A stretch of DNA of 64,000 nucleotides from Fibrobacter sp. UWEL (GTDB lineage: Bacteria; Fibrobacterota; Fibrobacteria; Fibrobacterales; Fibrobacteraceae). A program made the translations under genes and the position numbers. The notes beneath the pieces were generated by a model, which was not told where the DNA came from, did no database searches, and was given only the letters and a program-made list of their open reading frames with translations. This document shows positions 20,976 to 47,375 of the stretch, in pieces; the stretch's first letter is position 1, and the number at the start of each line of letters is the position of its first letter. The stretch is taken from the NCBI RefSeq assembly GCF_900142535.1, contig NZ_FRBE01000007.1, forward strand, positions 62,001 to 126,000. The letters are read 5' to 3'.

Positions 20976-20988
20976 AGGCGAGAGTTTT

Positions 20989-22701: not shown

Positions 22702-22717
22702 AACAAAGGAGTCCAAA

Positions 22718-23224: not shown

Positions 23225-23227
23225 AGT

Positions 23228-23920: not shown

Positions 23921-23926
23921 TGTTTT

Positions 23927-24535
23927 ATGAGTTACGTTAAGATTGGCGTTGGAGGCCCCGTAGGTTCCGGAAAGACCGCATTGATCGAAAGGCTCACCCG
24001 CAAGATGAGCAAGGAATACAGCATTTGCGTGGTCACCAACGATATTTACACCAAGGAAGATGCTGAATTTTTGATCAAGAATTCCGCCCTACCCGCCGAA
24101 CGCATCGTTGGCGTAGAAACAGGCGGATGCCCCCACACCGCCATTCGCGAAGACTGCTCCATGAACCTGGAAGCCGTGGACGAAATGGCCCACAAGTTTC
24201 CCGACGTGCAGATCATTTTCATTGAAAGCGGTGGCGATAACCTGTCCGCTACTTTCAGCCCCGACTTGGCTGACGCAAGCATTTACGTCATTGACGTAGC
24301 CCAGGGGGAAAAGATTCCCCGCAAGGGTGGTCCCGGCGTCATGCGTTCCGATCTGCTGGTCATTAACAAGACGGACTTGGCCCCGCTAGTAGGCGCAAGC
24401 TTGGAAGTGATGGCCCGAGATTCAGAACGGATGCGAGAAGGCCGCAAGTTTTTATTCACGAACCTCATGAGCATGGATGGCGTAGACGAAGTCATCGCAT
24501 GGATCAAGAAGGCTGTTCTATTCGAAGGCGTTTAA
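23927..24535 (+). CDS. ureG: Urease accessory GTPase UreG
   Basis: The 202-aa SIMIBI GTPase has P-loop GPVGSGKT (10-17), the [15 protein letters not shown] region, the metal-binding [14 protein letters not shown] (Cys-Pro-His), [13 protein letters not shown], and [11 protein letters not shown]. It drives GTP-dependent nickel insertion into urease. Confidence 0.95.
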
Positions 24536-26007: not shown

Positions 26008-26124
26008 AGCTTTCAAAATTCTGTATCTACATAAATCTTACAGAAAAATATTCTGCAAGAAGTCAAGATTTTTTTCCACCTCAGCGTCCCTTCGGCAATA
26101 AGGTTGGTGAGCTCGCCGAACCAC

Positions 26125-26140
26125 TGGCACGGCTTTTGCA
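26125..26140 (+). promoter_or_regulatory. Sigma-54 promoter of the ATP-grasp/transglutaminase operon
   Basis: TGGCACGGCTTTTGCA is identical to the urtA promoter. The start site calculated from the GC doublet falls on 26151, the A of the ATG, so the message would be leaderless. An inverted pair TTCTGTA (26019-26025)/TTACAGAA (26038-26045) lies about 110-130 bp upstream. Confidence 0.88.
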
Positions 26141-26150
26141 CTAATGGAGT

Positions 26151-28649: not shown

Positions 28650-28651
28650 AA

Positions 28652-29527: not shown

Positions 29528-29590
29528 ACGATGAACAATTAACAATGAATAATGAATGAAGGTTAGTTGAGTCACAACATTCTTATCAAG

Positions 29591-29635
29591 AGTCATTCTG
29601 AGCGGAATCGCGAAGCGATGAAGTCGAAGAATCTA
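29591..29635. repeat. Dispersed palindromic repeat copy (long, diverged)
   Basis: This copy runs from AGTCATTCTGAGCGG to GAAGAATCTA, the family ends, with an internal extra hairpin ATCGCGAAGCGAT. It is 45 bp long against about 28 bp for the compact copies. Confidence 0.65.
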
Positions 29636-29683
29636 AAAAGAATTAAAAACAAAGGCTGAATAGAAAGAACAAAACAAACAACG

Positions 29684-29711
29684 CTAGATCCTCGCCTTCG
29701 CGAGGATGACA
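29684..29711. repeat. Dispersed palindromic repeat copy
   Basis: The copy reads CTAGATCCTCGCC ... GGATGACA and forms a near-perfect hairpin with a small loop. It is the closest match to the copy embedded in bioW. Confidence 0.85.
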
Positions 29712-29744
29712 TAGTACGGAAAAACACACAAGGAAAAACAGAAC

Positions 29745-31238: not shown

Positions 31239-31247
31239 GAGAGAATC

Positions 31248-32177
31248 ATGTTAAGTAGAGTTGCAAATTCCATTTATTGGCTTGCCCGCTATATTGAACG
31301 TGCAGAAAATGTCGCCCGCGGCATTGACGTGAATCTTCAGCTTCAGCTGGACTTGCCTGGCGAAGAACGTCCCTGGGAACCGGTAATCCAGACCGCCGGC
31401 AACGCCGATGAATTCTTCAAGAAGTACGCTCACGTTTCTATCGAGAACGCCTTGATGTTCCTCACCTTCGACAAGGAAAATCCCAGCAGCATCATCTCTT
31501 GTGTGGCTGCCGCCCGCGAAAACGCCCGCTGCGTTCGCGAGAGAATTTCCTCCGAATTGTGGCTAGCCATCAACCAGTTTTACCTAAAACTGAACGAACC
31601 TGATATGCCCCAGCAGGTATTGGCATCTCCCCACACGTTCTACAGAAGCGTGAAGGAATTCAGCCAGCTTACCGCAGGTATCATTCAGGGCACCATGAAT
31701 CATGACGTTGCCTGGAATTTTACCCATCTAGGCACGCTGCTGGAACGAGCCGACCAGACTTCCCGAATTCTGGATGTGAAGTACTACATCCTCCTTCCGG
31801 ATGTGAGCATGGTGGGCATGGCCATGGATACGGTGCAGTGGAACGCGGTTCTTAAGAGCGTGGGCGCATACGAAATGTTCCACCGCCGCAATTCCAACGT
31901 AACACCCCATAACGTTGCGGAATTTCTCCTCCTTACGGAAGACTTCCCCCGTTCCCTTCGTTACTGTTTGGAAAAGGCGGAACAAGTTCTCAAGAATATT
32001 GCATTCCCCGTAAAGAGCAATGCAGAATCCATCCGTATGTTGGGCAAGCTCCGTTCCGATGTGGCATTCACCACCATTGACGAAATCATCAATGATGGTC
32101 TTCACGAACGTATCGAAAAAATTCAGACACGCCTGAACGAGCTGGGTAATCAAATCTGGAAGGATTTCTTCTGCTAG
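31248..32177 (+). CDS. Alpha-E domain protein (DUF403)
   Basis: The 309-aa protein is all-helical and starts with the family signature MLSRVANSIYWLARYIERAE, followed by NVARGIDVN. It has conserved acidic and arginine-rich helices (AARENARCVRERISSELW, LGTLLERADQTSRILDVKYY). Alpha-E proteins occur only beside or fused to these ATP-grasp proteins and are thought to be partner subunits. It is homologous to the C-terminal domain of the 26151 gene, so the operon encodes the same pair once fused and once separate. Confidence 0.9.
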   Translation: MLSRVANSIYWLARYIERAENVARGIDVNLQLQLDLPGEERPWEPVIQTAGNADEFFKKYAHVSIENALMFLTFDKENPSSIISCVAAARENARCVRERISSELWLAINQFYLKLNEPDMPQQVLASPHTFYRSVKEFSQLTAGIIQGTMNHDVAWNFTHLGTLLERADQTSRILDVKYYILLPDVSMVGMAMDTVQWNAVLKSVGAYEMFHRRNSNVTPHNVAEFLLLTEDFPRSLRYCLEKAEQVLKNIAFPVKSNAESIRMLGKLRSDVAFTTIDEIINDGLHERIEKIQTRLNELGNQIWKDFFC

Positions 32178-32922: not shown

Positions 32923-34230
32923 TTATTTTGATTGGCGATTAAAAATTACCCTACAAACAGGCACCAGATACAGGAAGCAGGCGCAAAGTACGGCACTGTT
33001 GGGAGCCTGCACAGCATTCAGTACAATCACGGTAGCCACAGACCAGGGAACCAATGCGATTACCGTTACAGCAGTATCGTAAAGGTTCAAAGCCTGATTT
33101 TTCGCCCCCAGATTTTCGCTCATCTGATTGGTCAAAATGATGGTAAGAGTCTGATTGCAAACTACGCAAGAAGTAATGCAGGCACAAGCCAAAGTAGCAA
33201 CGAAAGGATTAGTCTTTTGGGACAGCTTTTCGATTTTCGACTTCAACGGATTCAGCAAAGGCGTACCCTTGAAAATGCCGCCGTAACAGCCCGCGATGAC
33301 CACGATCAAAAACACGTTCACCATGGAAAGCAAACCGCCGCCGTTCACCATTTTCGCAATTTCCGGCACGGAGGTTTTATAGCCGAACACTAATGCCTTC
33401 AGCAGTTCCATTACACCTTGGTTTTCAATTACAAGCGCTAGGATAAATGCGGAAATAGAACTCCACAAAAGAACCAGACTGGTTCGTACACGAGCAATGG
33501 AAAGGGCAATAATTACCCCCGCAGGAATCAAGGTCCAGAGAGAAAGAGAAAAATCCTTGGCAAAAAGTTCAGCCACATTTGGGACAGCAACAGCATTCGC
33601 AGCAGAGGCAGCACCACCTTTCATTCCCGCCACAAAATAAACTACACAGCTCAGCAGGAAAGGCAACCATGTCGTACGCACCATGCCGCGAATGTTCTGA
33701 TAGATATCCGTCTTGGTTATGCCCGCCGTCAAGAGCGCCATAGAAGAGATGGGCGAAATTCTGTTACCGAAGTATACGCCCGCCAGAACCGCGCCACCAA
33801 TCCACGCAGAATCCGCAGTGCTATCCATCCCGATGGAACGCCCGATAGTAGCACAAATAACACCCATGGTTGCCGCAGTCCCCAGAGCCGTTCCCGTCAA
33901 GAGGGACATGGCGGAATTCAGCACGAAGGTCAACAGAATAAAGCTTGACGGATGAATCAGTTCTACCGCATAACTCACGATTACGGGAATAGTACCTGCA
34001 GCTCGCCACATGGAGGTCAAGAGCCCCAGCAGAACAAACAACAGCAGAATGCCGCGGGTCGTCTTGATGCCGTTCCAACACATTTTCAAAGTTTCGCCAC
34101 AGCCGCGGAATCGCACGCCATAACCAGCAAAAAGCAGCAATCCAAACAGCAACGCATACAGCAAAGGCACGCCCGCAAACAGCGACGCAAAAAGTGCAAT
34201 GCAGAATGTTAAAAGAATTGCAATTTCCAT
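32923..34230 (-). CDS. NhaC-like sodium/proton antiporter family membrane protein
   Basis: The protein has about 10-12 membrane segments (435 aa from ATG 34230, MEIAILLTFCIALFASL; a 24-codon upstream extension to 34302 is possible). Motifs such as TGTALGTAATMGVICATIG and YFGNRISPISSMALLTAGIT match the NhaC/Na+:H+ antiporter superfamily. In the urease neighbourhood it could help keep internal pH when ammonia is made, but ion specificity is not readable. Confidence 0.75.
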   Translation of the reverse strand: MEIAILLTFCIALFASLFAGVPLLYALLFGLLLFAGYGVRFRGCGETLKMCWNGIKTTRGILLLFVLLGLLTSMWRAAGTIPVIVSYAVELIHPSSFILLTFVLNSAMSLLTGTALGTAATMGVICATIGRSIGMDSTADSAWIGGAVLAGVYFGNRISPISSMALLTAGITKTDIYQNIRGMVRTTWLPFLLSCVVYFVAGMKGGAASAANAVAVPNVAELFAKDFSLSLWTLIPAGVIIALSIARVRTSLVLLWSSISAFILALVIENQGVMELLKALVFGYKTSVPEIAKMVNGGGLLSMVNVFLIVVIAGCYGGIFKGTPLLNPLKSKIEKLSQKTNPFVATLACACITSCVVCNQTLTIILTNQMSENLGAKNQALNLYDTAVTVIALVPWSVATVIVLNAVQAPNSAVLCACFLYLVPVCRVIFNRQSK

Positions 34231-34366
34231 TTTTCTAAATCCCAAAATTGATGACTTTGTCAACAACCTTATCAAAGGTAGAAAAATCATTTTGTAATCC
34301 ATTCCAAAACTTTTTACGCAAGTTTTTCACTATATGTAACCCTTTACATTTTATGCATTGCATTTC

Positions 34367-34398
34367 TGCAGTTTTCTAAAAAAACATGCAGTTTTCTA
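34367..34398. promoter_or_regulatory. 12-bp direct repeat upstream of the allophanate hydrolase gene
   Basis: TGCAGTTTTCTA occurs at 34367-34378 and again at 34387-34398, a spacing of exactly 20 bp, about two helical turns. This looks like a paired activator site. The remainder of 34231-34366 is A/T rich, and no sigma-54 consensus is present. Confidence 0.4.
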
Positions 34399-34424
34399 TT
34401 GCCAAAAAAGATTCACAGTGCTAC

Positions 34425-34446
34425 TTTATAAAAGTACTTTACAAAG
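34425..34446. promoter_or_regulatory. Candidate operator shared with the carboxylase operon
   Basis: Two adjacent near-palindromes, ACTTT-ATA-AAAGT and ACTTT-AC-AAAGT, occupy 34424-34447. On the opposite strand the block at 46180-46201 has the same outer parts (TTTATAAA and CTTTACAAAG with a 4-nt variable spacer plus one C). It lies about 62-83 bp before the allophanate hydrolase ATG. Confidence 0.5.
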
Positions 34447-34507
34447 TTTAATTCGAGTCGAGACGCCAGGAAGACTGCAGCCGGCCGCACCCTGCAAGGA
34501 GTCCGCT

Positions 34508-36316
34508 ATGGCACAACTTGATCTTAGAATTTCAAGCCTCCGCTCTGCTTATGAAAAGGGCGAAATCACTCCCCGTGAAGTTGTACAAAACCTCCGCGAT
34601 GCCATCGAAAAGGCTCCCAAGGAAATCTGGATTGCAAAGACCAGCAAGGAACAACTGGAAAAATATTTGACCGCTTTGGAAGACGTTGCCGACCGCGCAA
34701 GGAGCGCCGCAGGTTTCAAGATTCCCGCAGACAAGCCCCTATTCGGCATTCCATTCGCCATCAAGGACAACATTGACTGCGAAGGTATGGAAAGCACTTC
34801 CGCCTGCCCCGCCTACGCCTACATGCCCAAGAAATCCGCCTTCGTGGTAGAGCGCCTCATTGAAGCTGGCGCCATTCCCATGGGCAAAACCAACATGGAC
34901 CAGTTCGCCACCGGCCTGGTGGGCGTGCGCTCCCCTTACGGAAGCATCCCTAACCGCTACGCCCCGGAATATGTTTCTGGGGGAAGCAGCAGCGGTTCTG
35001 CAGCCGCCTTGGCTTATGGGCTTTGCAGTTTTTCGCTGGGCACAGATACGGCAGGATCCGGCCGCGTCCCCGCCGCCTTCAACAAGCTTGTAGGCGTGAA
35101 GCCTACCCGCGGTTTGCTTAGCACCAGCGGAGTGATTCCCGCCTGCCGTAGCCTAGACTGCGTTAGCATTTTTGCATTGGACAATAGCGACGCCCGCTAC
35201 GTCTTGAACATCGCCGGTGCCGAAGATTCCGAAGACGCCTACTCCCGCGAAGCTCCGTGGAACTCTGCTTCGGACAGCGCAGGCTCCGCAGCCCGCCTCC
35301 CCGAAAACTGGACCTTCGGTGTCCCCGAAGAAAGCGAGCTGAACTTCTTTGGAAACGAGGGTTACAAGGCCGCCTTCTACCGCGCCGTGGAAGCTTTTGA
35401 AAAAGCAGGCGGCACCAAGGTCACCATCCACTTTACTCCATTCCTAGAAGCAGCGCGCCTGCTTTACGAAGGCCCCTGGGTTTTTGAACGTTACGATGCA
35501 GTGGGCAAGTTCATCGAAGAACATCCCGACGAAATCTTCCCCGTCACCAAGGAAATCATTAGCCCCAAAACAACACCCCACCCCTCCGAAGTTTTCGCCG
35601 GATTCCACGCCCTGCAAGCCAAGAAGAAAATTGCCGACCTTGAATTTTCAAAGGTGGACGTTTTGCTCACCCCCACCGCAGGCACCATCTACAAGACCGC
35701 AGAAGTAAACGCCGACCCCATCAAGCTGAACAGCAACCTGGGCTATTACACCAACTACATGAACCTGCTGGATTATTCCGCCCTGGCCATCCCCGCCGGC
35801 ATGGCCACCTGCAAGGACTCCAGCACCGACACAGGTTCCATCCAGTTGCCCTTTGGCGTTACCATCGTAGGCCATGCCTTTGACGACTTCAAGCTTTTGG
35901 ATGTGGCCGAAAAGGTCACCCCCTTCCTTAGCGAAAAGATTCCCCTGGCAGTTTGCGGAGCCCACCTGAAGGGCGAACCCCTACACTATCAATTGCAAAC
36001 CGCCGACTTCTTGGGTGCCACCGAAACCGCCCCGGAATACAAGATGTACGCCTTCAAGGACGGCAACATTCAAAAGCCAGCCATGATCGCAGGCAACAGC
36101 AGTTTCTACGTAGAACTTTACGCCCTCACCCCCGAGGAATTCGGCAAGTTCGCCGCCGCTATTCCTGCCCCCCTGGGAATCGGCAAGATCAAGCTTTCCG
36201 ACGGTCGCGTGGTCCCCGGATTCATTGGCGACGGCACCATCTCGGTCATGGCCTTTGGCGGTGCCGCTGTCGACATTTCGGAATTCGGAGATTGGCGTAA
36301 GTACATCCACAAATAA
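34508..36316 (+). CDS. atzF: Allophanate hydrolase (amidase-signature enzyme)
   Basis: The 602-aa protein starts at ATG 34508, with AAGGAG upstream. It has an amidase-signature domain (about 1-440) with Lys86 (GIPFAIKDN), the GGSSSGS loop (158-164) and the nucleophile Ser184 (GTDTAGSGR), and the C-terminal domain typical of allophanate hydrolases (about 515-600, MYAFKDGNIQKPAMIAGN ... LGIGKIKLSDGR ... GDGTISVMAFGG). It converts allophanate to ammonia and CO2, the second half of the urea- or guanidine-carboxylase route. It is convergent with, not part of, the carboxylase operon. Confidence 0.92.
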   Translation: MAQLDLRISSLRSAYEKGEITPREVVQNLRDAIEKAPKEIWIAKTSKEQLEKYLTALEDVADRARSAAGFKIPADKPLFGIPFAIKDNIDCEGMESTSACPAYAYMPKKSAFVVERLIEAGAIPMGKTNMDQFATGLVGVRSPYGSIPNRYAPEYVSGGSSSGSAAALAYGLCSFSLGTDTAGSGRVPAAFNKLVGVKPTRGLLSTSGVIPACRSLDCVSIFALDNSDARYVLNIAGAEDSEDAYSREAPWNSASDSAGSAARLPENWTFGVPEESELNFFGNEGYKAAFYRAVEAFEKAGGTKVTIHFTPFLEAARLLYEGPWVFERYDAVGKFIEEHPDEIFPVTKEIISPKTTPHPSEVFAGFHALQAKKKIADLEFSKVDVLLTPTAGTIYKTAEVNADPIKLNSNLGYYTNYMNLLDYSALAIPAGMATCKDSSTDTGSIQLPFGVTIVGHAFDDFKLLDVAEKVTPFLSEKIPLAVCGAHLKGEPLHYQLQTADFLGATETAPEYKMYAFKDGNIQKPAMIAGNSSFYVELYALTPEEFGKFAAAIPAPLGIGKIKLSDGRVVPGFIGDGTISVMAFGGAAVDISEFGDWRKYIHK

Positions 36317-36342
36317 AATCTAATAGTACAAACCACACAACA

Positions 36343-36373
36343 AAAAACTGTTCCTCTTCGGAGCAGTTTTTTT
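36343..36373 (+). terminator. Rho-independent terminator of the allophanate hydrolase gene
   Basis: AAACTGTTCC (36345-36354) pairs with GGAGCAGTTT (36360-36369) around a TCTTC loop, followed by T residues. It stops transcription before the convergent carboxylase gene. Confidence 0.85.
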
Positions 36374-36394
36374 GATGTTTCGGCAGAACAGAAA

Positions 36395-36422
36395 ACCCGC
36401 CTCGAATTCCATCGAGACGGGC
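36395..36422 (-). terminator. Terminator of the carboxylase operon (minus strand)
   Basis: On the minus strand GCCCG-T-CTCGA pairs with TCGAG-G-CGGG, followed by TTTTCTG. A second GC-rich hairpin (GCGCGG/CCGCGC around 36445-36462) sits between it and the carboxylase stop codon. Confidence 0.65.
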
Positions 36423-36466
36423 ATCTTGTTATGTGGAGTTCTAATGCGCGGGAGACCGCGCGGTAA

Positions 36467-39400
36467 TTACATGGGCTTTACGGCAAAGAGGCATTGACCG
36501 GAGCGGATTTCGCCACCTTGCTTTCCAAAGACCTGAGTAACGACACCGTCTTCGTCGGCAACCACCGGGATTTCGGTCTTCATACTTTCCAAAATAGCCA
36601 GGGTATCGCCAGCCTTGAACTTGGCGCCCACTTCAGAAACAACTAGCTTCCAGAGGGAACCAGCCACAGGACTGTACACACCTTCTTCGCCGTCGGCCAA
36701 GGTCACCTCTGCAGCGGGGGCTGCGTCAGCGCTATGGCTTTCGAAAGTGAACTGACCATTTGCAATCCAACGCTGCTTTTCTTCTTCGAAGGCGTTCTTG
36801 CGCTTGGTTTCAAAGGCATCGATGGTCGTTGCGTTATCTGCCAGGAACTTTTCGTATTCGGTAATGTCGAAGGAACTTTCCACGATCTTTACGTGGAACT
36901 TGCCAGCGATGAAATCCTTGCGCATCTGCAGAAGTTCATCGGCACCCACTTCGTAGTACTTGACCACGTCAAAGAAGCGGAGCAGGTAAGGCAAGGTGAA
37001 GTCGCTTGTCTTTTTGAAACGATTCCACATCTGGACGGTACGGCCAACGAACTGATAGCCGCCGGGACCTTCCATGCCATAGACGCACATGTATGCGCCG
37101 CCAATACCCACAGCGTTTTCGGGAGTCCAGGTACGAGCCGGGTTGTACTTGGTGGTCACCAGACGATGGCGAGGATCCAGCGGAGTAGCCACAGGAGCGC
37201 CCAGATAAACGTCGCCCAGGCCCATGACCAAGTAATCGGCGTTCATGACAATGTTCTTCACATCGGCAATGGAATCCAGGCCGTTAACGCGGCGGATGAA
37301 TTCGATGTTGTTGGGGCAGCACCAAGGTGCACCGGGGCGAACGGTGGTCACGTACTTTTCGATAGCCACGCGAGTCTGGGGGTCGTCCCAAGAAAGGGGC
37401 AGGTAAACTGTACGGGTGGGAACCTTGGTGACCTTGTTCTTCTTCAGGTGTTCGGCAAGGTCAGCAAGCTTTGCAAGCATTTCACCCTGACGGATTTTTG
37501 CAATATCGTAATGGATCTGGATAGAGCGAATACCCGGGGTAACGTCAATGACCAGGTCGGCCATCTGTTCCTTAACAGCCAGCATCCAGGCGTGAGCGGT
37601 AAAGCGGAGGCGAAGGTCAATAATGGCAGGGCCAAATTCAACCAGCACATAGTTGTCACCATCGGCGCGGACAACGATGTGATCCATTTCATCGGCGCTA
37701 TCCTTGTGGAATTCGGCAATAATGGGAGTGACCACAGGAGCGGCAACCAAAGCAGGAATTGCAGCGGAAGCAGCAGCGACATTTGCAAGGTTTGCTTCAC
37801 GAGCCAAGCGAATTTCTTCGGCGCTTTCGGCAGTGAGGGGAACGAACTTGACGCGGTCACCACTGCGGAGCTGACCCATCTTCCAAAGTTCAGAAGAAAC
37901 GATGGTAACAGGGCAAGCAAAGCCACCCAGGCTGGGGCCATCTACGCCCAAAATAATGGGCATGTCGCCAGTAAAGTCTACGGTACCAATGGCGTAGGCG
38001 TTATCGTGAAGGTTGGAAGGATGAAGGCCTGCTTCACCGCCATCGGGGCGAGCCCACTTGGGCTGAGGTCCAATCAAACGAATGCCAGTTCTAGAAGAGT
38101 TGTAATGAACTTCCCAATTAGCGGCAAAGAATTCATCAATGTCTTCCTGAGTCAAATAGTCAGGAGCACCATGAGGGCCGTACATCACGCCAATTTCCCA
38201 CTGGGTAGAAATCTGCGGAAGAGCGGCTTCTGCAGGAACCACAGGTTCTGTAGCAATGGCGTTACCAATGTGGAGGATATCGCCAGCAGCCAAAGCGCGA
38301 CCGCCGTGTCCACCGAAACCGCCCAGGGTAAAGGTAGACTTGCTTCCCAGATAATCGGGAACGTCAATACCACCGCGAATAGCCAGGTAAGCACGCTGAC
38401 CCATCTTGGTAATACCGAACTTCAGCACATCACCATCGTGAACTTCAACAGGAGTGTTCTTGGAGCATGCAGCACCGTTCAGCTTTGCAGGGAAATCACC
38501 GCCCACCCATGCAATCACCGTATCGGTATGGAAGGCAAGGGAGCAGCCGGAAAGAGTCATTTCGATACCGGCGGCGTCATCGGCGTTACCCACAATCTTG
38601 TTGGCAAGGCGGAAACTGTAGTTATCCATAGGACCGCTAGGAGGAATACCTACATCCCACAGATTCAAACGACCCGGATAATCCTGGATGGTTGTCTGGA
38701 GGCCCGGAGCCAGCACTTCAAAAATCTTGTTTTCGTACTTGTAATCGTTCAGGATCCAGGTAGAGACCTTACCGTTAATAAAGTCTTCCATTTCAAGGAC
38801 ATCCTGCAAAAGCTTGATGTTGGTTTCAAAACCACAGAGCTTGACCTGTTCCAAAACCTTGCGAGCCTTGGCAATGTTGTCGTCGCGATCGTCGCCGGCC
38901 ACAATCACCTTTGCCAACAGAGGATCGTAGAAGGCACTGACTTCGGTACCGCGAGAAACCCAGGTGTCTACGCGAATGCCTTCGGGGAAGGAAACTTCGG
39001 TCAACAGGCCACTGGAGGGGCGATAGTTCTTGCCCGGATCTTCGGCGTATACGCGAAATTCCATGGCATGGCCCTTGGGGGTAAACTGGGCACCGATTTC
39101 GAAGGGGCGTCTCCCTGCGGCCTGTTCGATCATCCAGCGCACCAGATCCACACCGAACACCGTTTCGGTGACGCCATGTTCCACCTGCAAACGGGTATTC
39201 ACTTCCAGGAAGTAGAACTTGTCATCCTTGGCATCGTAAATAAATTCAACGGTACCTGCAGAGCGGTACTGAACACCCTGTACCAGGCGGAGGGCAGAAG
39301 CATGGAGGGCTTCACGAGTAGCCTGCGGAAGGCAAGGAGCCGGAGTTTCTTCAACAACCTTCTGGTTACGGCGCTGCACGGAGCAATCGCGTTCACCGAG

Positions 39401-40066
39401 AACAACGGCATTACCTTCACCATCACCGAAAACCTGGACTTCTACGTGGCGGCCACGTTCCACATACTTTTCTACAAAGAGTCCTGCGTTCTTGAAGTTG
39501 TTTTCGCTAAGACGCTTAATACGATCATAGCTTTCGCGGAGTTCAGTTTCGCTGTGGCAAATAGCCATACCAATGCCGCCACCGCCTGCAGTGCTCTTGA
39601 GCATGACGGGGTAGCCAATCTTTCCAGCACCTTCTGCAGCTTCATCAACGCTATTCAAAAGGCCGGTACCAGGAACCAGGGGAACACCAAATTCTTCGGC
39701 CAGTTCCTTACTGCGGTGCTTTAAACCAAATTCAATCAACTGCTTGGGAGTGGGGCCAATAAAGGCAACGCCATTTTCTTCCAAGATTTTTGCAAATTCT
39801 GCATTTTCACTTAAGAAACCATAACCCGGGTGAACGGCTTCGGCACCGGTCTGCTTAATGGCAGCTAGGATGGCGTCCACATTCAGGTAGCTATCCTTGG
39901 CGGCGGCAGGGCCAACACGGACCGCTTCATCAGCCATCAAAACATGGGCAGCAGTTTCGTCGGGATCGGAATAGACCGCCACGGACTTTACGCCCATTTC
40001 TTTTAGAGAACGAATGACACGGCAAGCAATTTCGCCACGGTTCGCAATCAGTACTTTCTTAAACAT
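36467..40066 (-). CDS. Biotin-dependent urea/guanidine carboxylase
   Basis: The 1199-aa protein has an ATP-grasp biotin carboxylase (about 1-450, MFKKVLIANRGEIACRVIRS, KSTAGGGGIGM, FLEVNTRLQVEHGVTE), the two KipI/KipA-like carboxyltransferase halves (about 455-1100, GPMDNYSFRLANKIVGN, PWCCPNNIEFIRRVNG, GYQFVGRTVQMWNR), and a C-terminal biotinyl domain with the attachment Lys1163 in ESMKTE. It carboxylates urea to allophanate, or guanidine to carboxyguanidine. The DUF1989 genes upstream make guanidine at least as likely (established link: DUF1989 proteins CgdAB are carboxyguanidine deiminase). It is the last gene of the sigma-54 operon. Confidence 0.9.
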   Translation of the reverse strand: MFKKVLIANRGEIACRVIRSLKEMGVKSVAVYSDPDETAAHVLMADEAVRVGPAAAKDSYLNVDAILAAIKQTGAEAVHPGYGFLSENAEFAKILEENGVAFIGPTPKQLIEFGLKHRSKELAEEFGVPLVPGTGLLNSVDEAAEGAGKIGYPVMLKSTAGGGGIGMAICHSETELRESYDRIKRLSENNFKNAGLFVEKYVERGRHVEVQVFGDGEGNAVVLGERDCSVQRRNQKVVEETPAPCLPQATREALHASALRLVQGVQYRSAGTVEFIYDAKDDKFYFLEVNTRLQVEHGVTETVFGVDLVRWMIEQAAGRRPFEIGAQFTPKGHAMEFRVYAEDPGKNYRPSSGLLTEVSFPEGIRVDTWVSRGTEVSAFYDPLLAKVIVAGDDRDDNIAKARKVLEQVKLCGFETNIKLLQDVLEMEDFINGKVSTWILNDYKYENKIFEVLAPGLQTTIQDYPGRLNLWDVGIPPSGPMDNYSFRLANKIVGNADDAAGIEMTLSGCSLAFHTDTVIAWVGGDFPAKLNGAACSKNTPVEVHDGDVLKFGITKMGQRAYLAIRGGIDVPDYLGSKSTFTLGGFGGHGGRALAAGDILHIGNAIATEPVVPAEAALPQISTQWEIGVMYGPHGAPDYLTQEDIDEFFAANWEVHYNSSRTGIRLIGPQPKWARPDGGEAGLHPSNLHDNAYAIGTVDFTGDMPIILGVDGPSLGGFACPVTIVSSELWKMGQLRSGDRVKFVPLTAESAEEIRLAREANLANVAAASAAIPALVAAPVVTPIIAEFHKDSADEMDHIVVRADGDNYVLVEFGPAIIDLRLRFTAHAWMLAVKEQMADLVIDVTPGIRSIQIHYDIAKIRQGEMLAKLADLAEHLKKNKVTKVPTRTVYLPLSWDDPQTRVAIEKYVTTVRPGAPWCCPNNIEFIRRVNGLDSIADVKNIVMNADYLVMGLGDVYLGAPVATPLDPRHRLVTTKYNPARTWTPENAVGIGGAYMCVYGMEGPGGYQFVGRTVQMWNRFKKTSDFTLPYLLRFFDVVKYYEVGADELLQMRKDFIAGKFHVKIVESSFDITEYEKFLADNATTIDAFETKRKNAFEEEKQRWIANGQFTFESHSADAAPAAEVTLADGEEGVYSPVAGSLWKLVVSEVGAKFKAGDTLAILESMKTEIPVVADEDGVVTQVFGKQGGEIRSGQCLFAVKPM

Positions 40067-40159
40067 TTCTTGTTCCTTTTTCAGTCACGCGATTTTTCGC
40101 GTCCTAATTCGGAACCCGCCTTGCATTCACTCGAACGCCGCGGAATTTCCACACAACAA

Positions 40160-40990
40160 TTACTTCCCCGCCATCATGCAAAGCATCCGGGAAAGAGCGC
40201 CATTAGTTTTTTCCAATTCGGTAAGAATCGAAAAATGATTATGGCCCTCTAGCAGGGAATAAGTTCCCGGTACACGTTCTGCAGCTCTGAGAGTTGCAAA
40301 TTCAAGACTCTGTCGACGCAGTTCCGGAAGTTCATCACTTCCCGAAACAATGACAACAGGCTTCCTCACCAGCGGCACGCGAGCAGGGCTCAGGCGAATC
40401 ACCTCGTCGGAAGTCAATTTCAATTTTTCATTCAGGTAGCTTTTGGAAATCGGTTCCAGATCGTAGATGCCGCTAATGGCCAATGCGCCCTGCACCCCTG
40501 TTTCATCAAGAACAGAAACGCAAAGGTGGCCCCCAGCAGACCAGCCCGAAACATAAATGCGATTAGCATCAAAACCCAATTCATCGGCACGGCTGCGCAA
40601 TACCTTTATGGCCAACCGAATTTCGTAAATGATTCCCGTCAAAGACATTTCGGGAGCCAAGGTATAGCCAACATTGGCCACATTAAAGCCATTGGCCAGC
40701 GGACCCCTCGCAAGGAAACGGAAAGTATCCTTGCAGCGCATCTGCCAATAGCCACCATGAATGAACAAGAACAGCGGAGCCTTACGATTACCGCAGCTAA
40801 AATAGTCGAACCTGTTTCGAGTCCCGTTCCCATAGGTTAGATGCATGAATTCAACGAATTCTTTTGCAATCATATCGCTACGATTGTCAAAAGCTTTCAA
40901 CAGCAATGCGCTATCGGCAACCGCATTGGAGTTGTCGTAACCAGCATCCAGTTCCGCCTGGGTAAAGCCACGATAAACAAGTTCGCTCAT
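40160..40990 (-). CDS. Alpha/beta hydrolase, arylformamidase-like
   Basis: The 276-aa protein has the HGGYW motif (78-82), the nucleophile Ser151 in GWSAGG, Asp219 in GSDELPE, and the catalytic His in GHNHFS (250-252), as in the kynurenine formamidase group of alpha/beta hydrolases. It should hydrolyse an amide, formamide or ester in the cytoplasm. It sits between the carboxylase and the DUF1989 genes, 9 bp from the latter, an unusual partner for that pathway; the substrate is unknown. The 93-bp gap to the carboxylase holds a small hairpin (ACGCGA/TCGCGT). Confidence 0.8.
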   Translation of the reverse strand: MSELVYRGFTQAELDAGYDNSNAVADSALLLKAFDNRSDMIAKEFVEFMHLTYGNGTRNRFDYFSCGNRKAPLFLFIHGGYWQMRCKDTFRFLARGPLANGFNVANVGYTLAPEMSLTGIIYEIRLAIKVLRSRADELGFDANRIYVSGWSAGGHLCVSVLDETGVQGALAISGIYDLEPISKSYLNEKLKLTSDEVIRLSPARVPLVRKPVVIVSGSDELPELRRQSLEFATLRAAERVPGTYSLLEGHNHFSILTELEKTNGALSRMLCMMAGK

Positions 40991-40999
40991 CAGTCCCTC

Positions 41000-41641
41000 T
41001 TATGCGTCCCACACCACCATACGAATGGGAGTGGGGTTATAGTCATTACAAGGGTTATTCAGCTGGGAGCAATCGCTCAGCAAGAACAGCACATCCATAT
41101 CGGCACGCATGTCAATGTACTTGCCCGGCCCCGAAATACCATCGGCAAATTCCAGGCGACCAGTGTCATCCAGAATAACCTTGGTAAAGAAATTCAGGTT
41201 GCAAGTCTGATCTCGCTTACTCATGCCAAAGTTCTGCAAGGTACGCACAAAAGTGTCGCGACAGCTATGCATATAACGGGTCTTATCCGTATAACGCACA
41301 CAGTTCCCTTCTGCAGAACAGCCACTGCCAAGAGTATCGTGCTCACCGCAAGTATCTGCAATCACCGTCAACATAGGATTGTTCAGGTTACTGCGAATAA
41401 CCGTACCCAACTCAATCATGGTGTTGGCCTGGGCGGTTATGGTATTGTTGGCATTGTAGCGTTCGGTTTTATCGCGCTGGTTATAAATCTGCACGTCACC
41501 GGACTGGTTTCCGCAAACATCGATCAAGCGTAGAATCTGCCCCTTCTTCAAGGGCAGCATATAGCCGTCACCTGCATTCACCGTAACATCGAAGACAGCA
41601 TCTTCGACCTTGCGGGAACTTTCAAGAAGTTTGGAATTCAT
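41000..41641 (-). CDS. DUF1989 protein, urea carboxylase-associated type 1 (copy A)
   Basis: The 213-aa protein contains the DUF1989 metal-site motifs DTCGEHDTLGSGCSAEGN and YMHSCRDTF, and the C-terminal LNNPCNDYNPTPIRMVVWDA. It is closely similar to copy B at 41658 (same ends, same motif spacing). In guanidine degradation two DUF1989 subunits form carboxyguanidine deiminase, which releases ammonia and allophanate. Having two type-1 copies is unusual. Confidence 0.85.
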   Translation of the reverse strand: MNSKLLESSRKVEDAVFDVTVNAGDGYMLPLKKGQILRLIDVCGNQSGDVQIYNQRDKTERYNANNTITAQANTMIELGTVIRSNLNNPMLTVIADTCGEHDTLGSGCSAEGNCVRYTDKTRYMHSCRDTFVRTLQNFGMSKRDQTCNLNFFTKVILDDTGRLEFADGISGPGKYIDMRADMDVLFLLSDCSQLNNPCNDYNPTPIRMVVWDA

Positions 41642-41657
41642 AATGACCTCGTTCCTC

Positions 41658-42302
41658 TTATGCGTCCCAGATAATCATGCGAACGGGGGTGGGATCGTAG
41701 GCGTTGCAGGGATTGTTCAGCTGGGGGCAGTTGCTCACCACAGCATATACATCCATTTCAGCCTTCATTTCTACATACTTGCCCGGGCTAGAAATACCAT
41801 CGGCAAAGTTCAGGTTGCCCCGTTCATCAAAAGGCACGTACATAAAGAAGTTCAAGTTGTTCACCTGATCACGCTTGTCTAAATCCGGAGTTTCAAGCAA
41901 GACCTTCAGGAAGGATTCGCGGCAGGCGTGCATATAACGCTTGTCCAGAGAATAGCGGCAAGTATTACTTTCGCAAGAGCAGGCAGATCCCAGAGTATCA
42001 TGGTCGCCGCAAGTATCGGCAACAACAGTAAGCATAGGATTGTCATCGTTGGAATAAAGCTTGGTACCAACGCCTACCAGGCAGTTAGCCTGACGCTGAA
42101 CAGTCTGCTGCACGCTGTAACGTTCAGAAGGATCGTTTGCGTTAATGAAAAGCGTATCTACGGCCTGGTTGCCCTTCAGGTCCAGGATTCTAAAAGTCTG
42201 ACCTTTCTTGATCAGGTGAAGCCAGCCAGCACCAGCCGGCACGTCTTCAACATAAACAGCATCTTCTTCTTTCAGGGAGCTTTCGAGATATTTTGTATAC
42301 AT
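41658..42302 (-). CDS. DUF1989 protein, urea carboxylase-associated type 1 (copy B)
   Basis: The 214-aa paralogue of the downstream gene has DTCGDHDTLGSACSCESN, YMHACRESF and LNNPCNAYDPTPVRMIIWDA. It matches the usual UAAP1/CgdB-type sequence more closely than copy A, so it is probably the true deiminase subunit and copy A the divergent duplicate. It is 16 bp from copy A and 19 bp from the type-2 gene. Confidence 0.85.
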   Translation of the reverse strand: MYTKYLESSLKEEDAVYVEDVPAGAGWLHLIKKGQTFRILDLKGNQAVDTLFINANDPSERYSVQQTVQRQANCLVGVGTKLYSNDDNPMLTVVADTCGDHDTLGSACSCESNTCRYSLDKRYMHACRESFLKVLLETPDLDKRDQVNNLNFFMYVPFDERGNLNFADGISSPGKYVEMKAEMDVYAVVSNCPQLNNPCNAYDPTPVRMIIWDA

Positions 42303-42321
42303 TTTTTAGTCCTCCTAGAAA

Positions 42322-43038
42322 TTAAAGGTTATAGTCTGCAGTGTTAATGAAACCGCGGCCATTTTCCGGACACCAAGTAAAGCAAGGATCTTCAGCAGTA
42401 GAATCATCGCAAGTCAAGAGTTCAACCTTAACAGGCTTGCGCAGGTATTCCTTAGTGGGGTTCAGAGGATGAAGACCAGTATCAATCACAACAAGGGTAT
42501 CCATTTCGGCACGGAGCTCTACATAGTCACCGACCTTGGAGTTGTTCTCTACGAAGGTCATCTTGCCATCGGGAGTTACAACCACCTTGCTGAAGAAGTT
42601 TACAAGTTCAGTAAAGTCACGCTTGGTCAGGCCATGCTTGCCGATTTCCACCAGCAGGGAATCGTAACCATTACGGAAGAAATCGTTGTGGGAAGCCTGG
42701 TAAGTCTGTTCACCAAAACGTTCCTTGATAAGATTTGCATGAGTGCAGCCGCACAGAGGATCGTGCCAGCCAACGGTATCTTCTACAACGCTCAAAAGGA
42801 TGCGGCCCATATCGCTATAGAGGCAGCAGTTCTTGGCGATGCGGCAGATGTGCTGGATTTTCAGAGTATCACCGAGATTAAAACGTTCGGTCATATTCTT
42901 GGCATTATAGCACATGACGCTTGCATTGGCGCCGCCTTCAATATCGGTCAGGCGAATCTTCTGGCCCTTCTTCACAATACGGGAATAGTTCCAGCCACCA
43001 GCAATTGTTTTTTCAAGTAAGACTTTAGATTCAGACAT
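42322..43038 (-). CDS. DUF1989 protein, urea carboxylase-associated type 2
   Basis: The 238-aa protein has the type-2 signatures GGWNYSRIVKKGQKIRLTDIEG, LYSDMGRILLSVVEDTVGWHDPLCGCTH and YQASHNDFFRNGYDSLLVEI, and ends PCFTWCPENGRGFINTADYN. This is the second kind of subunit (UAAP2/CgdA-type) expected for carboxyguanidine deiminase. It lies between the transporter genes and the type-1 copies. Confidence 0.85.
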   Translation of the reverse strand: MSESKVLLEKTIAGGWNYSRIVKKGQKIRLTDIEGGANASVMCYNAKNMTERFNLGDTLKIQHICRIAKNCCLYSDMGRILLSVVEDTVGWHDPLCGCTHANLIKERFGEQTYQASHNDFFRNGYDSLLVEIGKHGLTKRDFTELVNFFSKVVVTPDGKMTFVENNSKVGDYVELRAEMDTLVVIDTGLHPLNPTKEYLRKPVKVELLTCDDSTAEDPCFTWCPENGRGFINTADYNL

Positions 43039-43096
43039 ATTTGGACTCCATTTTTTGAATTTCTTTTTTGCGCTCCTGCGCAGTTTTGATCGCGAT

Positions 43097-43948
43097 TTAC
43101 TTCTTGGCGATCATGTTCACGATTTTGAATTCTTCTTCGGGTTCTTCCACCAATTTGGGCGGGTGAATCAGATTTTCAATGTGCTTACGCTTTTCGATAA
43201 ACTCAGGCAGCAAGAAGCTATCTTTATTACGGGGACGAGGAACAGAATGAACATCCACCATTTCCTTCACCTTGCCGGGGTTTGCCTGCAGCGTCAAGAT
43301 TCTATCAGACAGGAAAACAGCTTCATCAAGATCATGAGTTACGAAGATAATGGTGATATCAATGTTCTTCCACACTTCCAGCAAGTACTTCTGCATCTGG
43401 GAGCGGGTCTGTGCATCAAGGGCACCGAAAGGTTCATCCATCAAGAGCACGCGGGGCTGCGGGGCCAAAGCTCGGGCAATTGCAACTCGCTGCTGCATAC
43501 CGCCAGAAAGCTGCTTTGGGAAGTATTCGCCATACTTTTCGAGACCCACAATCTGCAGCCACTGTTCGGCAATTTCTTCAGCTTCGCCGCCGTAGCCAAT
43601 GGATTCCAAGCCGAACATTACGTTCTTCTTCACAGACATCCAGGGGAAAAGCGTATACTTCTGGAATACCATGCCTCGTTCGGCGCTGGTACCCTTTACC
43701 TTCTTACCGTCCAGATAGAATTCGCCAGAGGTTGCTGTTTCAAGGCCTGCGGCAATGCGAATCAAAGTAGACTTACCGCAACCAGAAGGGCCAATAATAG
43801 AGAGGAATTCGCGACGACGCACACCAAAGGAAACATCGTCCAAAACGCGATGAGTACCAGAGCCGTTTGTTTCCTCGAAGTCCTTTACAATGTGGCGGGC
43901 TTCCAGAATAATATCTTCGGCAGGGGAAATAATCTTAGAGTCGGCCAT
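43097..43948 (-). CDS. ABC transporter ATPase, NrtD/SsuB/TauB type
   Basis: The 283-aa ATPase has Walker [11 protein letters not shown], signature [18 protein letters not shown], Walker [17 protein letters not shown], and the switch His in [10 protein letters not shown]. The permease gene overlaps it by 14 bp. The nitrate/sulfonate/taurine family is also the type of transporter found in guanidine- and urea-carboxylase loci. Confidence 0.9.
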
Positions 43949-45008
43949 TGTTCTTCTCCTTCAGAGCTTTTTCTTCTGCAGTCAAACGGAAGGAGAAAAC
44001 ATTTTCTCTCGGTCCAAAAACTTCATTCTTAATCTTTGCACCTACGCCTACTCGGCCATCTTCCCAGGCAAAGATCTTCTTGCCCAGCCATGCCAAAATC
44101 AGGTCGCAGCCAAGACCAATAATTCCAAGAATCACAATGGCAGCATAGACGTTATCGAAATTACGATACTTGGCCTGCTGATTTATGAACCAAGTAATAC
44201 CGGAACTTGTTCCCACCACTTCAGCGACAATCAAATAGGTCCATGCCCAACCCAAGAGGATTCGCATGTCCTTGTACATCTTGGGAGCAATTTCAGGGAG
44301 AATTACCTTGAAGAGAATACGCTTGGGAGAAGAACCCAAAGTACGAGCCGCTTCAATCAAGGCGCCATCGGCACGACGGGTGGTTGCCGCAATCATAGGC
44401 ACCTGTTGGAAGAAAGTACCGATGATAATGATGGCGATTTTCGGAGCATCGTTAATGCCAAGGATGGCAACAGCCAAAGCGCCAAAAACCGGAGCCGGGA
44501 AATAGCGGAAGAATTCAATGAAGGGCCCAGTCAGTTTTTCGAAGAAAGGAATGGCACCAGAAAGCATGCCCATGGGCACGCCCACAAGGCTCGAAAGGAA
44601 GAAGGCCAGGAACACAATCTTTACGGAATGGAGGATGCTCTGGTAGAACCATACATCGCCATCGCGCTTGGGTTCCGTGGTAAAAGCCGTTACCAAGGCC
44701 TTGGCCACTTCGTGAGGGGCCGGCAGGTAAGCAGGGTTGGCGCGAACGCCGGTCATGGGCTTTTCACCAGCTTCAACCAAGTTCTTGTTTTCTTCGGCGA
44801 AGTTGGCACGATCAATTTCATCACCAGGCATACAGAACATGCTATCGCCAGCGTCCACCACGCGCATCAGCGGGTGATACACAAAAGGCACATAGCTAAT
44901 CACGCTCCAGGTAGCCAGGGGAATCACAAAGGAAAGAATGGCCAAAACCATAGTCCATTTCTTTCCGACAGTCTTTTGAATTCCAACAGGATTAGTCATT
45001 TGATCCAC
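43935..45008 (-). CDS. ABC transporter permease, NrtB/SsuC type
   Basis: The 357-aa protein has an N-terminal membrane helix, a soluble insertion of about 90 residues (about 55-125), then a BPD_transp_1 core with the EAA-like loop [26 protein letters not shown]. The inserted segment makes it longer than the usual 250-280 aa permease. It forms the channel for the substrate-binding protein encoded upstream. Confidence 0.88.
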
Positions 45009-45024
45009 ACAACATTAAGGTTTT

Positions 45025-45043
45025 GCGGGGGCGCAACCCCCGC
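45025..45043. other. Perfect GC-rich hairpin between binding-protein and permease genes
   Basis: GCGGGGG (45025-45031) and CCCCCGC (45037-45043) form a 7-bp stem with a 5-nt loop. On the minus (sense) strand no T tract follows, so it is more likely a 3' stabiliser or pause site that raises the level of the binding protein than a full terminator. Confidence 0.6.
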
Positions 45044-45060
45044 GATTTTTGCCAAATGAA

Positions 45061-46038
45061 TTACTTCTTCAGAGCGTCTTCGGTGAACTTAGGCATGATG
45101 AATCGATTCACATCAACACTCTTGTCATACACCTTGTTATCTACGAAGAACTTGTCTACAATCTTGGAAGAACCATAAATGGAATTGTAACCTTCGCCCT
45201 TCTTGAAATACTTCACAGATTCGCTGAGGCTCAAGAACTTGGTGCCGCCCATGAACTTCGAATACTGAGCTTCGGAAATACCCACGCGGGCAGCCAGAAT
45301 CTTAACAGCCTCATCCTTGTTGGCAGGGTCCTTCAAATAAGCCACCACGTCATCCCAGGCGGCCACCACCTTGGCCCATTCAGCCTTGTTCTTCATGAGG
45401 GATTCCTGAGAAACAACCAGCAAGTCATAAATGATACCCGGTTCGTTGGCGCTGGTGTAAAGTTCCTTGGAACCCTTCACCTTTTCAAGAGCGTTCACAG
45501 AATGGGGAACCCATGCCACCACAGCGGCAACTTCACCGGATTCCAGAGTCTGTACAGCCTGATGGGTGGGCATGTTCACCAGAGTCACTTCGGAAGGCTT
45601 CAAGCCATTCTTCTGCAGAGCGTTAATCAAAAGAGCGTGGGAAAGGCAGCCAATTTCAACGCCAACCTTCTTACCCTTCAAATCCTTGATGGAATTGATT
45701 CCCGGGGCACCGACAATCTTATCGTTACCGTTACTGTAGTCGTTGATCAGGATGGTCACGTTACGGGCGCCGGTAGCGTTCAGCACCATGGCATCACCGT
45801 TAGCAACACCCACAGCATCCACCTTCTTGGCAGCGAAAGCATCCATAGACGGACCGTAATCAAACCATTCCAACTTTACTTCCACATCGTGCTTCTTAAA
45901 GAAGCCCTTCTTTTCGGCAATTTCCCAGGCGGTCCAACCCGGCCAATCGCTGTAGGCAATCTTCAGAACAGGCTTCTGAGCGTAAACGGTTGCAGCCAAA
46001 GCCATAACGCCTGCAATCAAGAACTTGGAAATATTCAT
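45061..46038 (-). CDS. ABC transporter substrate-binding protein, SsuA/NrtA type
   Basis: The 325-aa protein starts at ATG 46038, with AGAGG upstream; longer frames would run into the promoter. It has a Sec signal peptide (1-20, ending VYA), and the SsuA/TauA-like fold: IAYSDWPGWTAWEIAEKKGFF, GNDKIVGAPGINSIKDLKGKKVGVE and AAVVAWVPHS. It captures the pathway substrate in the periplasm; context suggests urea, guanidine or a related cationic amidine. It is first in the operon. Confidence 0.88.
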   Translation of the reverse strand: MNISKFLIAGVMALAATVYAQKPVLKIAYSDWPGWTAWEIAEKKGFFKKHDVEVKLEWFDYGPSMDAFAAKKVDAVGVANGDAMVLNATGARNVTILINDYSNGNDKIVGAPGINSIKDLKGKKVGVEIGCLSHALLINALQKNGLKPSEVTLVNMPTHQAVQTLESGEVAAVVAWVPHSVNALEKVKGSKELYTSANEPGIIYDLLVVSQESLMKNKAEWAKVVAAWDDVVAYLKDPANKDEAVKILAARVGISEAQYSKFMGGTKFLSLSESVKYFKKGEGYNSIYGSSKIVDKFFVDNKVYDKSVDVNRFIMPKFTEDALKK

Positions 46039-46080
46039 AGGAAACCTCTTTAGGTGAATTGTTTTTTTCGTTTCCATAAA

Positions 46081-46096
46081 TGCAAATGCCGTGCCA
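46081..46096 (-). promoter_or_regulatory. Sigma-54 promoter of the transporter/DUF1989/carboxylase operon
   Basis: The minus strand reads TGGCACGGCATTTGCA, a full -24/-12 match. The calculated start is near 46070, giving a 32-nt leader with a ribosome-binding site before ATG 46038. Confidence 0.9.
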
Positions 46097-46179
46097 AAAA
46101 ACAAAAAACGGCGTTATTTTACAGATTTCGCCAGTTTTACACTTTCGTATCAAAGAGATAAGATTTCGGTAGCCTCACG

Positions 46180-46201
46180 CTTTGTAAAGGCACTTTATAA
46201 A
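46180..46201. promoter_or_regulatory. Candidate ROK operator upstream of the carboxylase operon
   Basis: CTTTGTAAAG at 46180-46189 is followed by GCA and CTTTATAAA, the inverse of the block at 34425-34446 before the allophanate hydrolase gene. It lies about 110-130 bp upstream of the sigma-54 start site, where an enhancer or repressor site could act. Confidence 0.5.
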
Positions 46202-46316
46202 ACACCTTTTTATTTTCCATTTTATGTAAACAAGATCTTCAGTTTTTCCTGATTTTGCCCACTTATTTTCTTCAAAAAAGATCGTTTTTGGTCAAAACGC
46301 ACCAAAACAAACACAT

Positions 46317-46325
46317 TTTGTAAAG
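46317..46325. promoter_or_regulatory. Candidate ROK autoregulatory half-site
   Basis: TTTGTAAAG occurs again about 50 bp before the ROK start codon, close to where a -35 element would lie (TATACG near 46341 may be the -10). The remainder of 46039-46373 is A/T rich; I found no guanidine riboswitch there. Confidence 0.4.
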
Positions 46326-46373
46326 TGGCATATTTTTCGCTATACGAGAAAGAATAGACGTTAAAGGAAATAA

Positions 46374-47375
46374 ATGGTTAAGGAAATTCACTCTTCGACA
46401 GAAATCAAGAAAATAAATGTGGCCAGCGTAAAAAGAGCCATTTTGGAGAAAGGATCCGCCACCAAGCCAGAAGTAGCTGAACTTACAGGACTGAGCGTCG
46501 TCACTTGCGGCGCGATCCTTAACGAGCTCGCCGCATCAGGGACCATTATCGAAGAAACACAAAGACTTTCCAACGGGGGTCGCCCCGCCGTGAGTTACCG
46601 TTTTAGCGAAAATACAGGCAACGCCCTCTGCGCATACATGTACAAGGAGAGCGATTTCTGCTATCTACGATATCAAATCCGAGACATTTCTGGAAACATC
46701 AAAGACACCGGCGTAATCCAAGAGAAGAGTCTCAGTATAGACACCCTGGTTGACTATATCAAAAAACTATGCGTTCCCGAAAAGTTCATCAAAGTCATCG
46801 TACTAGGAATCCAAGGGTGCATCAACAACGGCGTCTTGGAATTCTCCGATTTTTCAAATTTAATCGGAATCAACGTCTCTAACAAAATACAATCCGCAAC
46901 AGGAATCACCACGATAGTCGAAAACGACATGAACACCATCGCGCTAGGTTATTCCAAAAGCGACGAGAATACAAACGTAGACAACATTGCCATTCTCTTT
47001 TTTCCAAAGGGACAAACTCCCGCGGGAGGATTCGTTGTCGACGGGAACATTCTTCGCGGGTCATCAAATCTTGCAGGAGAGCTTTCTTTCTTCCCCTTCA
47101 ATTTCAAAAAAGAAAGTCAGCGAGTCGCCTTCAGCGACATTGAATATGCACAGCCAATCATAGGGCAGCTAGCCGTTGCCACCACTATATTTCTAGATCC
47201 ATCTGCCATCGTTATCACAGGCGGCCTATCTAATGAAGTGAACAAGGAAGACATTATAAATGTCTTAAAAACAAGCCTTAATCGCAGCCAACTTCCCGAC
47301 ATCAAAATTCAGCCTATGGTAGAATCGGAATATTACACCGGTTTATATTCCATTGCTCTTGACCATTTAATTTAA
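46374..47375 (+). CDS. ROK-family transcriptional regulator
   Basis: The 333-aa protein has an N-terminal winged helix (about 10-70, KRAILEKGSATKPEVAELTG, SVVTCGAILNELAASGTI, then NGGRPAVSYRF) and a ROK domain (about 80-330) with ENDMNTIALGY, a G-rich GFVVDGNILRG, and LAGELSFFP. The zinc-binding CxCGxxGC motif of many ROK proteins is absent. ROK regulators usually sense sugars, but this one diverges from a nitrogen-scavenging operon, which suggests a different effector. RBS AAAGGA precedes ATG 46374. Confidence 0.88.
   Translation: MVKEIHSSTEIKKINVASVKRAILEKGSATKPEVAELTGLSVVTCGAILNELAASGTIIEETQRLSNGGRPAVSYRFSENTGNALCAYMYKESDFCYLRYQIRDISGNIKDTGVIQEKSLSIDTLVDYIKKLCVPEKFIKVIVLGIQGCINNGVLEFSDFSNLIGINVSNKIQSATGITTIVENDMNTIALGYSKSDENTNVDNIAILFFPKGQTPAGGFVVDGNILRGSSNLAGELSFFPFNFKKESQRVAFSDIEYAQPIIGQLAVATTIFLDPSAIVITGGLSNEVNKEDIINVLKTSLNRSQLPDIKIQPMVESEYYTGLYSIALDHLI

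Follow-up and report, generated by a model that had tools for sequence, protein, structure and literature searches.

A 64,000-nucleotide stretch of the 3.53-Mb genome of Fibrobacter sp. UWEL (contig NZ_FRBE01000007.1, positions 62,001 to 126,000; hereafter "the window") carries an operon that very probably encodes a pathway of guanidine assimilation, in which a ROK-type regulator and a 23-bp dyad would stand in for a riboswitch and a second UAAP2 protein and a hydrolase would be extra parts. The operon consists of eight genes on the minus strand (46038 down to 36467), encoding in this order a periplasmic substrate-binding protein (SBP), an ATP-binding cassette (ABC) permease, an ABC ATPase, the DUF1989 proteins UAAP1, UAAP2 and second UAAP2, an alpha/beta-hydrolase and a biotin-dependent carboxylase. 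The gene for the allophanate hydrolase AtzF (34508-36316, plus strand) is a transcription unit of its own, convergent with the operon, and its product scores at equivalog level (NF006043, 699 bits; TIGR02713, 655 bits) and contains the amidase catalytic Ser motif (GGSSSGS). Judging by protein families, the importer would take up guanidine or a guanidine-bearing compound, the carboxylase would form carboxyguanidine from guanidine, ATP and bicarbonate, a complex of DUF1989 proteins, in which UAAP2 would be the metal-bearing subunit and UAAP1 its partner, would convert it to allophanate and ammonia, and AtzF would release two further ammonia and CO2. The eight genes would be transcribed from a sigma-54 promoter, and nitrogen status therefore probably gates the operon, while inducer control would probably be exerted by the ROK-type protein on dyads that precede the two transcription units. 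What sets the operon apart is this protein-based switch together with the second UAAP2 and the serine hydrolase, and we take it for a novel version of the pathway based on guanidine carboxylase. A prediction made earlier from the DNA letters (the original prediction) had noticed both a urease and an ATP-using carboxylase/allophanate hydrolase route in this segment and had considered the latter likely to serve guanidine. Both systems are indeed present, and the second part of the proposal gains support from the carboxylase signature, its position in the tree and the intact metal sites of the DUF1989 proteins.

The carboxylase (36467-40066, minus strand; 1199 aa) is annotated as a urea carboxylase (TIGR02712, 1783 bits, cut-off 1304), and its nearest named homologues are all from Fibrobacter. 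The biotin carboxylase, carboxyltransferase and biotin-carrier domains are intact, with the ATP-grasp motif present and the biotin motif ESMK at residue 1160. An Asp at the position of Kluyveromyces lactis residue 1584 defines guanidine carboxylases, and an Asp at position 1330 separates them from urea carboxylases (PMC11410670). The window protein keeps the Asp equivalent to 1584 (aligned GLGDV motif), and its Asp697 aligns exactly with K. lactis Asn1330, so that the substrate-pocket check suggested in the original prediction returns the guanidine-type residue. For contrast, we fetched relatives of the carboxylase with and without DUF1989 genes nearby. Asp occupies the specificity position in every compared carboxylase with DUF1989 genes in view, and likewise in that of L021/L092, whose upstream neighbours are cut off by the contig end. 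Asn-type carboxylases were found in a Klebsiella plasmid operon (L050, atzF-uca-GntR-urtABCDE), where the sequence examined contains no DUF1989 gene, and on a Fibrobacterota contig (L015/L091), beside an allophanate hydrolase and with no DUF1989 gene within the 7.4 kb examined. These two form one clade (support 100/100), and the window carboxylase stands apart from them, which was the outcome expected of a carboxylase for guanidine. The enzyme thus carries the published guanidine-carboxylase signature, which supports a predicted preference for guanidine over urea.

The DUF1989 proteins that had been foreseen are encoded by three genes (41000-43038, all on the minus strand), a number not given before. 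Next to the carboxylase gene gca in the known pathway stand one UAAP1 and one UAAP2, and here both score above their cut-offs: the CgdA-like UAAP1 (42322-43038; TIGR03425, 303 bits, cut-off 206) and the CgdB-like UAAP2 (41658-42302; TIGR03424, 306 bits, cut-off 285). The third protein (41000-41641) remains below the UAAP2 cut-off (262 versus 284.7 bits) and groups with UAAP2 as a separate clade. By a homology-based alignment to TMAO (trimethylamine N-oxide) demethylase, whose metal site consists of D198, C263, H276, C279 and C343 (PMC12560246), we mapped the ligands of the first UAAP2 to D49, C108, H125, C127 and C192. All five are kept in both UAAP2 copies across the 15 expanded operons (those with second UAAP2 and hydrolase) and in the UAAP2 of standard operons; in UAAP1 the Asp, the His and the three Cys are all absent. 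Each expanded operon hence encodes one metal-less and two metal-bearing subunits, and the deiminase active site, proposed as a check, retains every metal-site residue in two of the three window proteins. The second UAAP2 proteins form a clade of 15 (support 100/99), and first and second copies together a clade of 30 (100/99), from which it follows that the duplication is older than the split between the operons of Fibrobacter and Victivallales. The second copy is 54-57% identical to the first, and its identity between the two phyla (67-70%) lies in the range of the other subunits (64-76%). At positions conserved in both the first UAAP2 and standard CgdB it carries the changes A47S, L82I (in 87% of rows), A107G, S112G, L132V and M154T, of which A107G adjoins the metal ligand C108. 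A structure model of the protein has an overall pLDDT (predicted local distance difference test) score of 76, with segment 106-125 below 50 and hence low confidence for the metal loop.

The hydrolase gene (40160-40990, minus strand), which the original prediction did not mention, encodes a predicted cytosolic serine alpha/beta-hydrolase resembling hormone-sensitive lipase and kynurenine formamidase (Abhydrolase_3, BD-FAE). Its motifs are invariant among the homologues compared: HGGYW, GxSAG (GWSAGG in the window), the acid motif ELxEL (ELPEL) and His252. The closest PDB structures to its model (pLDDT 93.4) are a Pseudomonas lipase (9n8r, TM-score 0.92), followed by 2pbl (a putative thioesterase), 4zrs (a feruloyl esterase) and 4e15 (a kynurenine formamidase). 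Carboxylase and hydrolase occur in the same 7 of 80 Fibrobacter species genomes and in the same 6 of 198 genomes from the class to which Victivallis belongs, counts which do not represent independent events because the species share ancestry. In Fibrobacter the gene is flanked by those of the second UAAP2 and the carboxylase, in Victivallales it comes after that of the allophanate hydrolase; it has stayed with the pathway through operon rearrangement. Together with the second UAAP2, it is a fixed extra part of this lineage. No common substrate emerged from the gene neighbourhoods of proteobacterial hydrolase homologues. We also considered MgdL as a relative, and drew no link, as the paper describing it offers no fitting fold.

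The importer genes, all on the minus strand, encode an SBP of the SsuA/NMT1 type (45061-46038; SsuA_fam, 155 bits; Pfam NMT1), a TauC/SaoP-like permease with an uncertain start codon (43935-45008; BPD_transp_1, E=6e-21) and a SaoA/TauB/NrtCD-like ATPase (43097-43948; ABC_tran, E=1.5e-32). This SsuABC/TauABC/NrtABC type agrees with the NrtABD-type transporter proposed earlier. Against the "urea carboxylase-associated" model TIGR03427, the SBP reaches 151 bits, under the cut-off of 334.

Concerning regulation, the original prediction (no guanidine riboswitch, control by sigma-54 and a ROK protein) holds well. We found no guanidine riboswitch in the window at the Rfam gathering score, none relevant over 33900-46500 down to E=5, and none in eleven related loci, the presence of a guanidine-IV model in Rfam 15 being unconfirmed; a control operon from Caballeronia (L049) matches both Guanidine-I and Guanidine-II. 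In that operon, a sigma-54-like site lies just upstream of the Guanidine-I riboswitch (L049, 2525-2687), and the two controls may coexist there. A perfect sigma-54 promoter (TTGGCACGGCATTTGCA, 13/13 consensus positions) is located at 46081-46097 on the minus strand of the window, placing the predicted transcription start approximately 32 nt before the ATG of the SBP gene, a leader too short to leave room for a guanidine riboswitch. It has the form TGGCAC-N5-TTGC with fixed GG/GC spacing. The window contains four sigma-54 matches with at most one mismatch versus 0.49 expected, a number reached by none of 100 shuffles. All ten Fibrobacter loci tested have the site or a close variant 45-61 nt ahead of the SBP start; those of L005 and L009 are weak when taken alone (10/13, matched by about one in ten shuffles), yet sit at the same position. 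Loci of the V. vadensis type have a perfect site 87-88 nt before the SBP start. The genome also encodes rpoN and seven strong sigma-54 activators.

The dyad (CTTTATAAAA-N3-TTTTATAAAG, with small variations between loci) is a candidate operator, found in the window at 46180-46202 (minus strand), upstream of the import and degradation operon, and at 34424-34446 (plus strand), upstream of the allophanate hydrolase gene. Each of the 10 Fibrobacter loci compared has it 111-141 nt ahead of the SBP start, and all five loci in which the allophanate hydrolase gene is a separate unit have it before that gene as well; it was found neither before that gene in three tested loci where it directly follows the ROK gene, nor at five tested SBP promoters of lineages devoid of a ROK gene. 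The whole genome contains two matches with at most two mismatches, both at the pathway promoters, and none to a reversed control pattern; as the pattern was derived from these very sites, the informative part is its absence elsewhere and the agreement between species. A different, 22-bp dyad (TTTTGGT-N8-ACCAAAA, 46286-46307) between the ROK and SBP genes, nearer the former, occurs only in the window among the loci compared, and we dropped it as a conserved element. The ROK gene itself (46374-47375, plus strand; Pfam ROK, E=5e-11; NagC-like, with an N-terminal winged helix) begins just beyond the segment covered by the original prediction. In every Fibrobacter carrier with a locus long enough to include it, it stands next to the SBP gene and divergent from it, and in several of them it is followed by the allophanate hydrolase gene (L005, L006, L007, L009, L085, L086, L087, L088); ROK gene and dyad are both lacking in the Victivallales and other Fibrobacterota compared. 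ROK proteins of other species are 43-64% identical to that of the window. The usual zinc motif of ROK regulators, CxCGxxGCxE, is absent from all 12 sequences aligned. We consider this protein the natural candidate to bind the 23-bp dyad, and control by it probable.

The expanded set is common to Fibrobacter and Victivallales, whereas other members of the class Fibrobacteria (L089, L090, L093) possess the ordinary form, which has only two DUF1989 genes and lacks the hydrolase. Fibrobacter carboxylases are 65-69% identical to those of Victivallales versus 49-54% to those of their own class, for which a horizontal exchange of the operon, in either direction, would be the simplest account. The original prediction had joined the operon and the urease (15344-24535, together with UrtABCDE) into one island covering two substrates, and such a linkage does not stand: of 80 Fibrobacter genomes, 8 have urease, and only two of these also have the carboxylase. 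Urease and guanidine operon are inherited independently in Fibrobacter, and given these different distributions their proximity here is due to chance or to a recent arrangement, and they form no unit.

Carboxylase and allophanate hydrolase families are shared with the urea amidolyase route (AtzF with an Asn-type carboxylase, of which L050, with its urtABCDE, is an example), and the locus could accordingly be read as a second use of urea beside urease. Automatic annotation points that way, naming a urea carboxylase and urea amidolyase-associated proteins, and urea supports growth of Fibrobacter strain UWT2, of which we considered the phenotype, although no urease genes are known from it (PMC6291624). 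Yet that route has Asn and no DUF1989 genes, where we find Asp and three of them; it needs no deiminase, while the operon maintains intact ones, and the genome already holds an ATP-free urease with its UrtABCDE transporter. Furthermore, F. intestinalis NR9, the same strain as ATCC 43854 (PMC8865330), carries the operon (L007), while a urease was not matched in its genome, and no growth was detected when urea was its only nitrogen source (PMC6291624, Table 1), a result that speaks against the use of urea. With the signature residue, the tree and the published phenotype pointing the same way, we reject this reading as highly improbable. Several points nevertheless weigh against guanidine assimilation as proposed here: the distinction from urea hangs on a single-residue signature, the operon of NR9 may just have been silent during growth tests on urea, the SBP falls so far under the TIGR03427 cut-off that the imported compound is uncertain, only co-occurrence connects the ROK protein with the dyad, and known pathways need neither a second UAAP2 nor a hydrolase, so that the true starting substrate could differ from free guanidine.

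This last point leads to the role of the extra enzymes. The likeliest one, though we hold it tentatively, would be to widen the substrate range: either the hydrolase frees guanidine from a precursor that is acylated or carbamoylated, or a substituted carboxyguanidine is deiminated by the second UAAP2. Taken further, the operon might be specialised for a substituted guanidine or guanidine conjugate, with the hydrolase acting first, the second UAAP2 on a substituted carboxyguanidine and free guanidine a mere intermediate. The perfect co-occurrence of hydrolase and carboxylase in two phyla, the retention of the hydrolase despite its different operon place, the six substitutions of the second UAAP2, which are fixed or nearly so and one of which is beside a metal ligand, the divergent SBP and the precedent of a gca operon into which the methylguanidine genes mgdH/mgdL are inserted (PMC12508155) all speak for such a specialisation; but the sequence reveals no substrate and the nearest structures of the hydrolase point to no guanidine compound, and we regard it as possible rather than probable. 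The second UAAP2 could instead be a structural or dosage duplicate, the third subunit of one carboxyguanidine deiminase, next to a hydrolase that detoxifies or edits. It remains over half identical to the first copy with all metal ligands kept, and the heteromeric CgdA/CgdB is the known enzyme form (PMC11410670); yet the duplication predates the split of the operons, the protein is about as conserved as the other subunits, and its clade-specific substitutions lie by the metal site, leaving this an option of limited likelihood. As to the switch, ROK regulators usually sense sugars, and a Pho4-family permease gene follows the ROK gene in the window, so that the regulator might serve sugar metabolism or this permease while another protein binds the dyad. 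We find this unlikely given the conserved divergent orientation, the allophanate hydrolase gene next to it in several loci, the joint absence of dyad and ROK gene from Victivallales and other Fibrobacterota, and the loss of the zinc motif. A bolder scenario, which we consider doubtful, would combine exchange of the guanidine pathway between gut Fibrobacter and Victivallales, a hydrolase and a re-shaped second DUF1989 deiminase using an undescribed natural guanidine conjugate, and a ROK protein turned from sugar sensor into sensor of guanidine compounds.

The guanidine pathway that we favour resembles the gca pathway with CgdA/CgdB and AtzF of Pseudomonas syringae, Raoultella and Vreelandella (PMC12186494, PMC12508155), with which it shares ABC importer, UAAP1, UAAP2, guanidine-type carboxylase and AtzF in operon order. 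Added here are the second UAAP2, the alpha/beta-hydrolase and the divergent ROK regulator with its own dyad; the guanidine riboswitch is missing and the allophanate hydrolase forms a separate unit. The gca/mgdH/mgdL operon of Vreelandella boliviensis (PMC12508155) is likewise enlarged by two genes, which encode a dioxygenase and a hemiaminal lyase instead of a DUF1989 paralogue and a serine hydrolase, and it has two riboswitches where the window has none. A review predicts carboxylase genes without riboswitches to be urea-specific (PMC12186494), and the Fibrobacter lineage, with its putative protein-based switch, looks like a counter-example. Guanidine is present in faeces and urine of cows and sheep (PMC11410670), and the literature we searched names no gut fibre-degrader as guanidine consumer. 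The second deiminase subunit and the hydrolase are two concrete enzymes for assay, and a test of guanidine use would be simple in F. intestinalis NR9, since this type strain is in culture and has the operon without a urease.

The urease of Fibrobacter (PMC6291624) also concerns nitrogen supply in this genus, as an independent enzyme system with its own species distribution that uses urea directly without ATP. In the window its gamma and beta subunits are fused into a single gene (20295-20975), and an Rfam match to 5_ureB_sRNA (126.8 bits, 21139-21433, minus strand) lies antisense to the urease alpha gene, which may merely reflect conservation of the coding sequence. Like the guanidine operon, it is associated with sigma-54 sites, which are divergent here (15038-15310): a perfect one at 15294 on the plus strand, upstream of urtA, and a one-mismatch site on the minus strand (15038-15054) before an acetolactate synthase gene (13386-15026). 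Another perfect site (26124-26140) precedes an uncharacterised cluster encoding circularly permuted ATP-grasp, alpha-E and transglutaminase-like proteins (26124-32177), which suggests that this cluster may be nitrogen-controlled as well.

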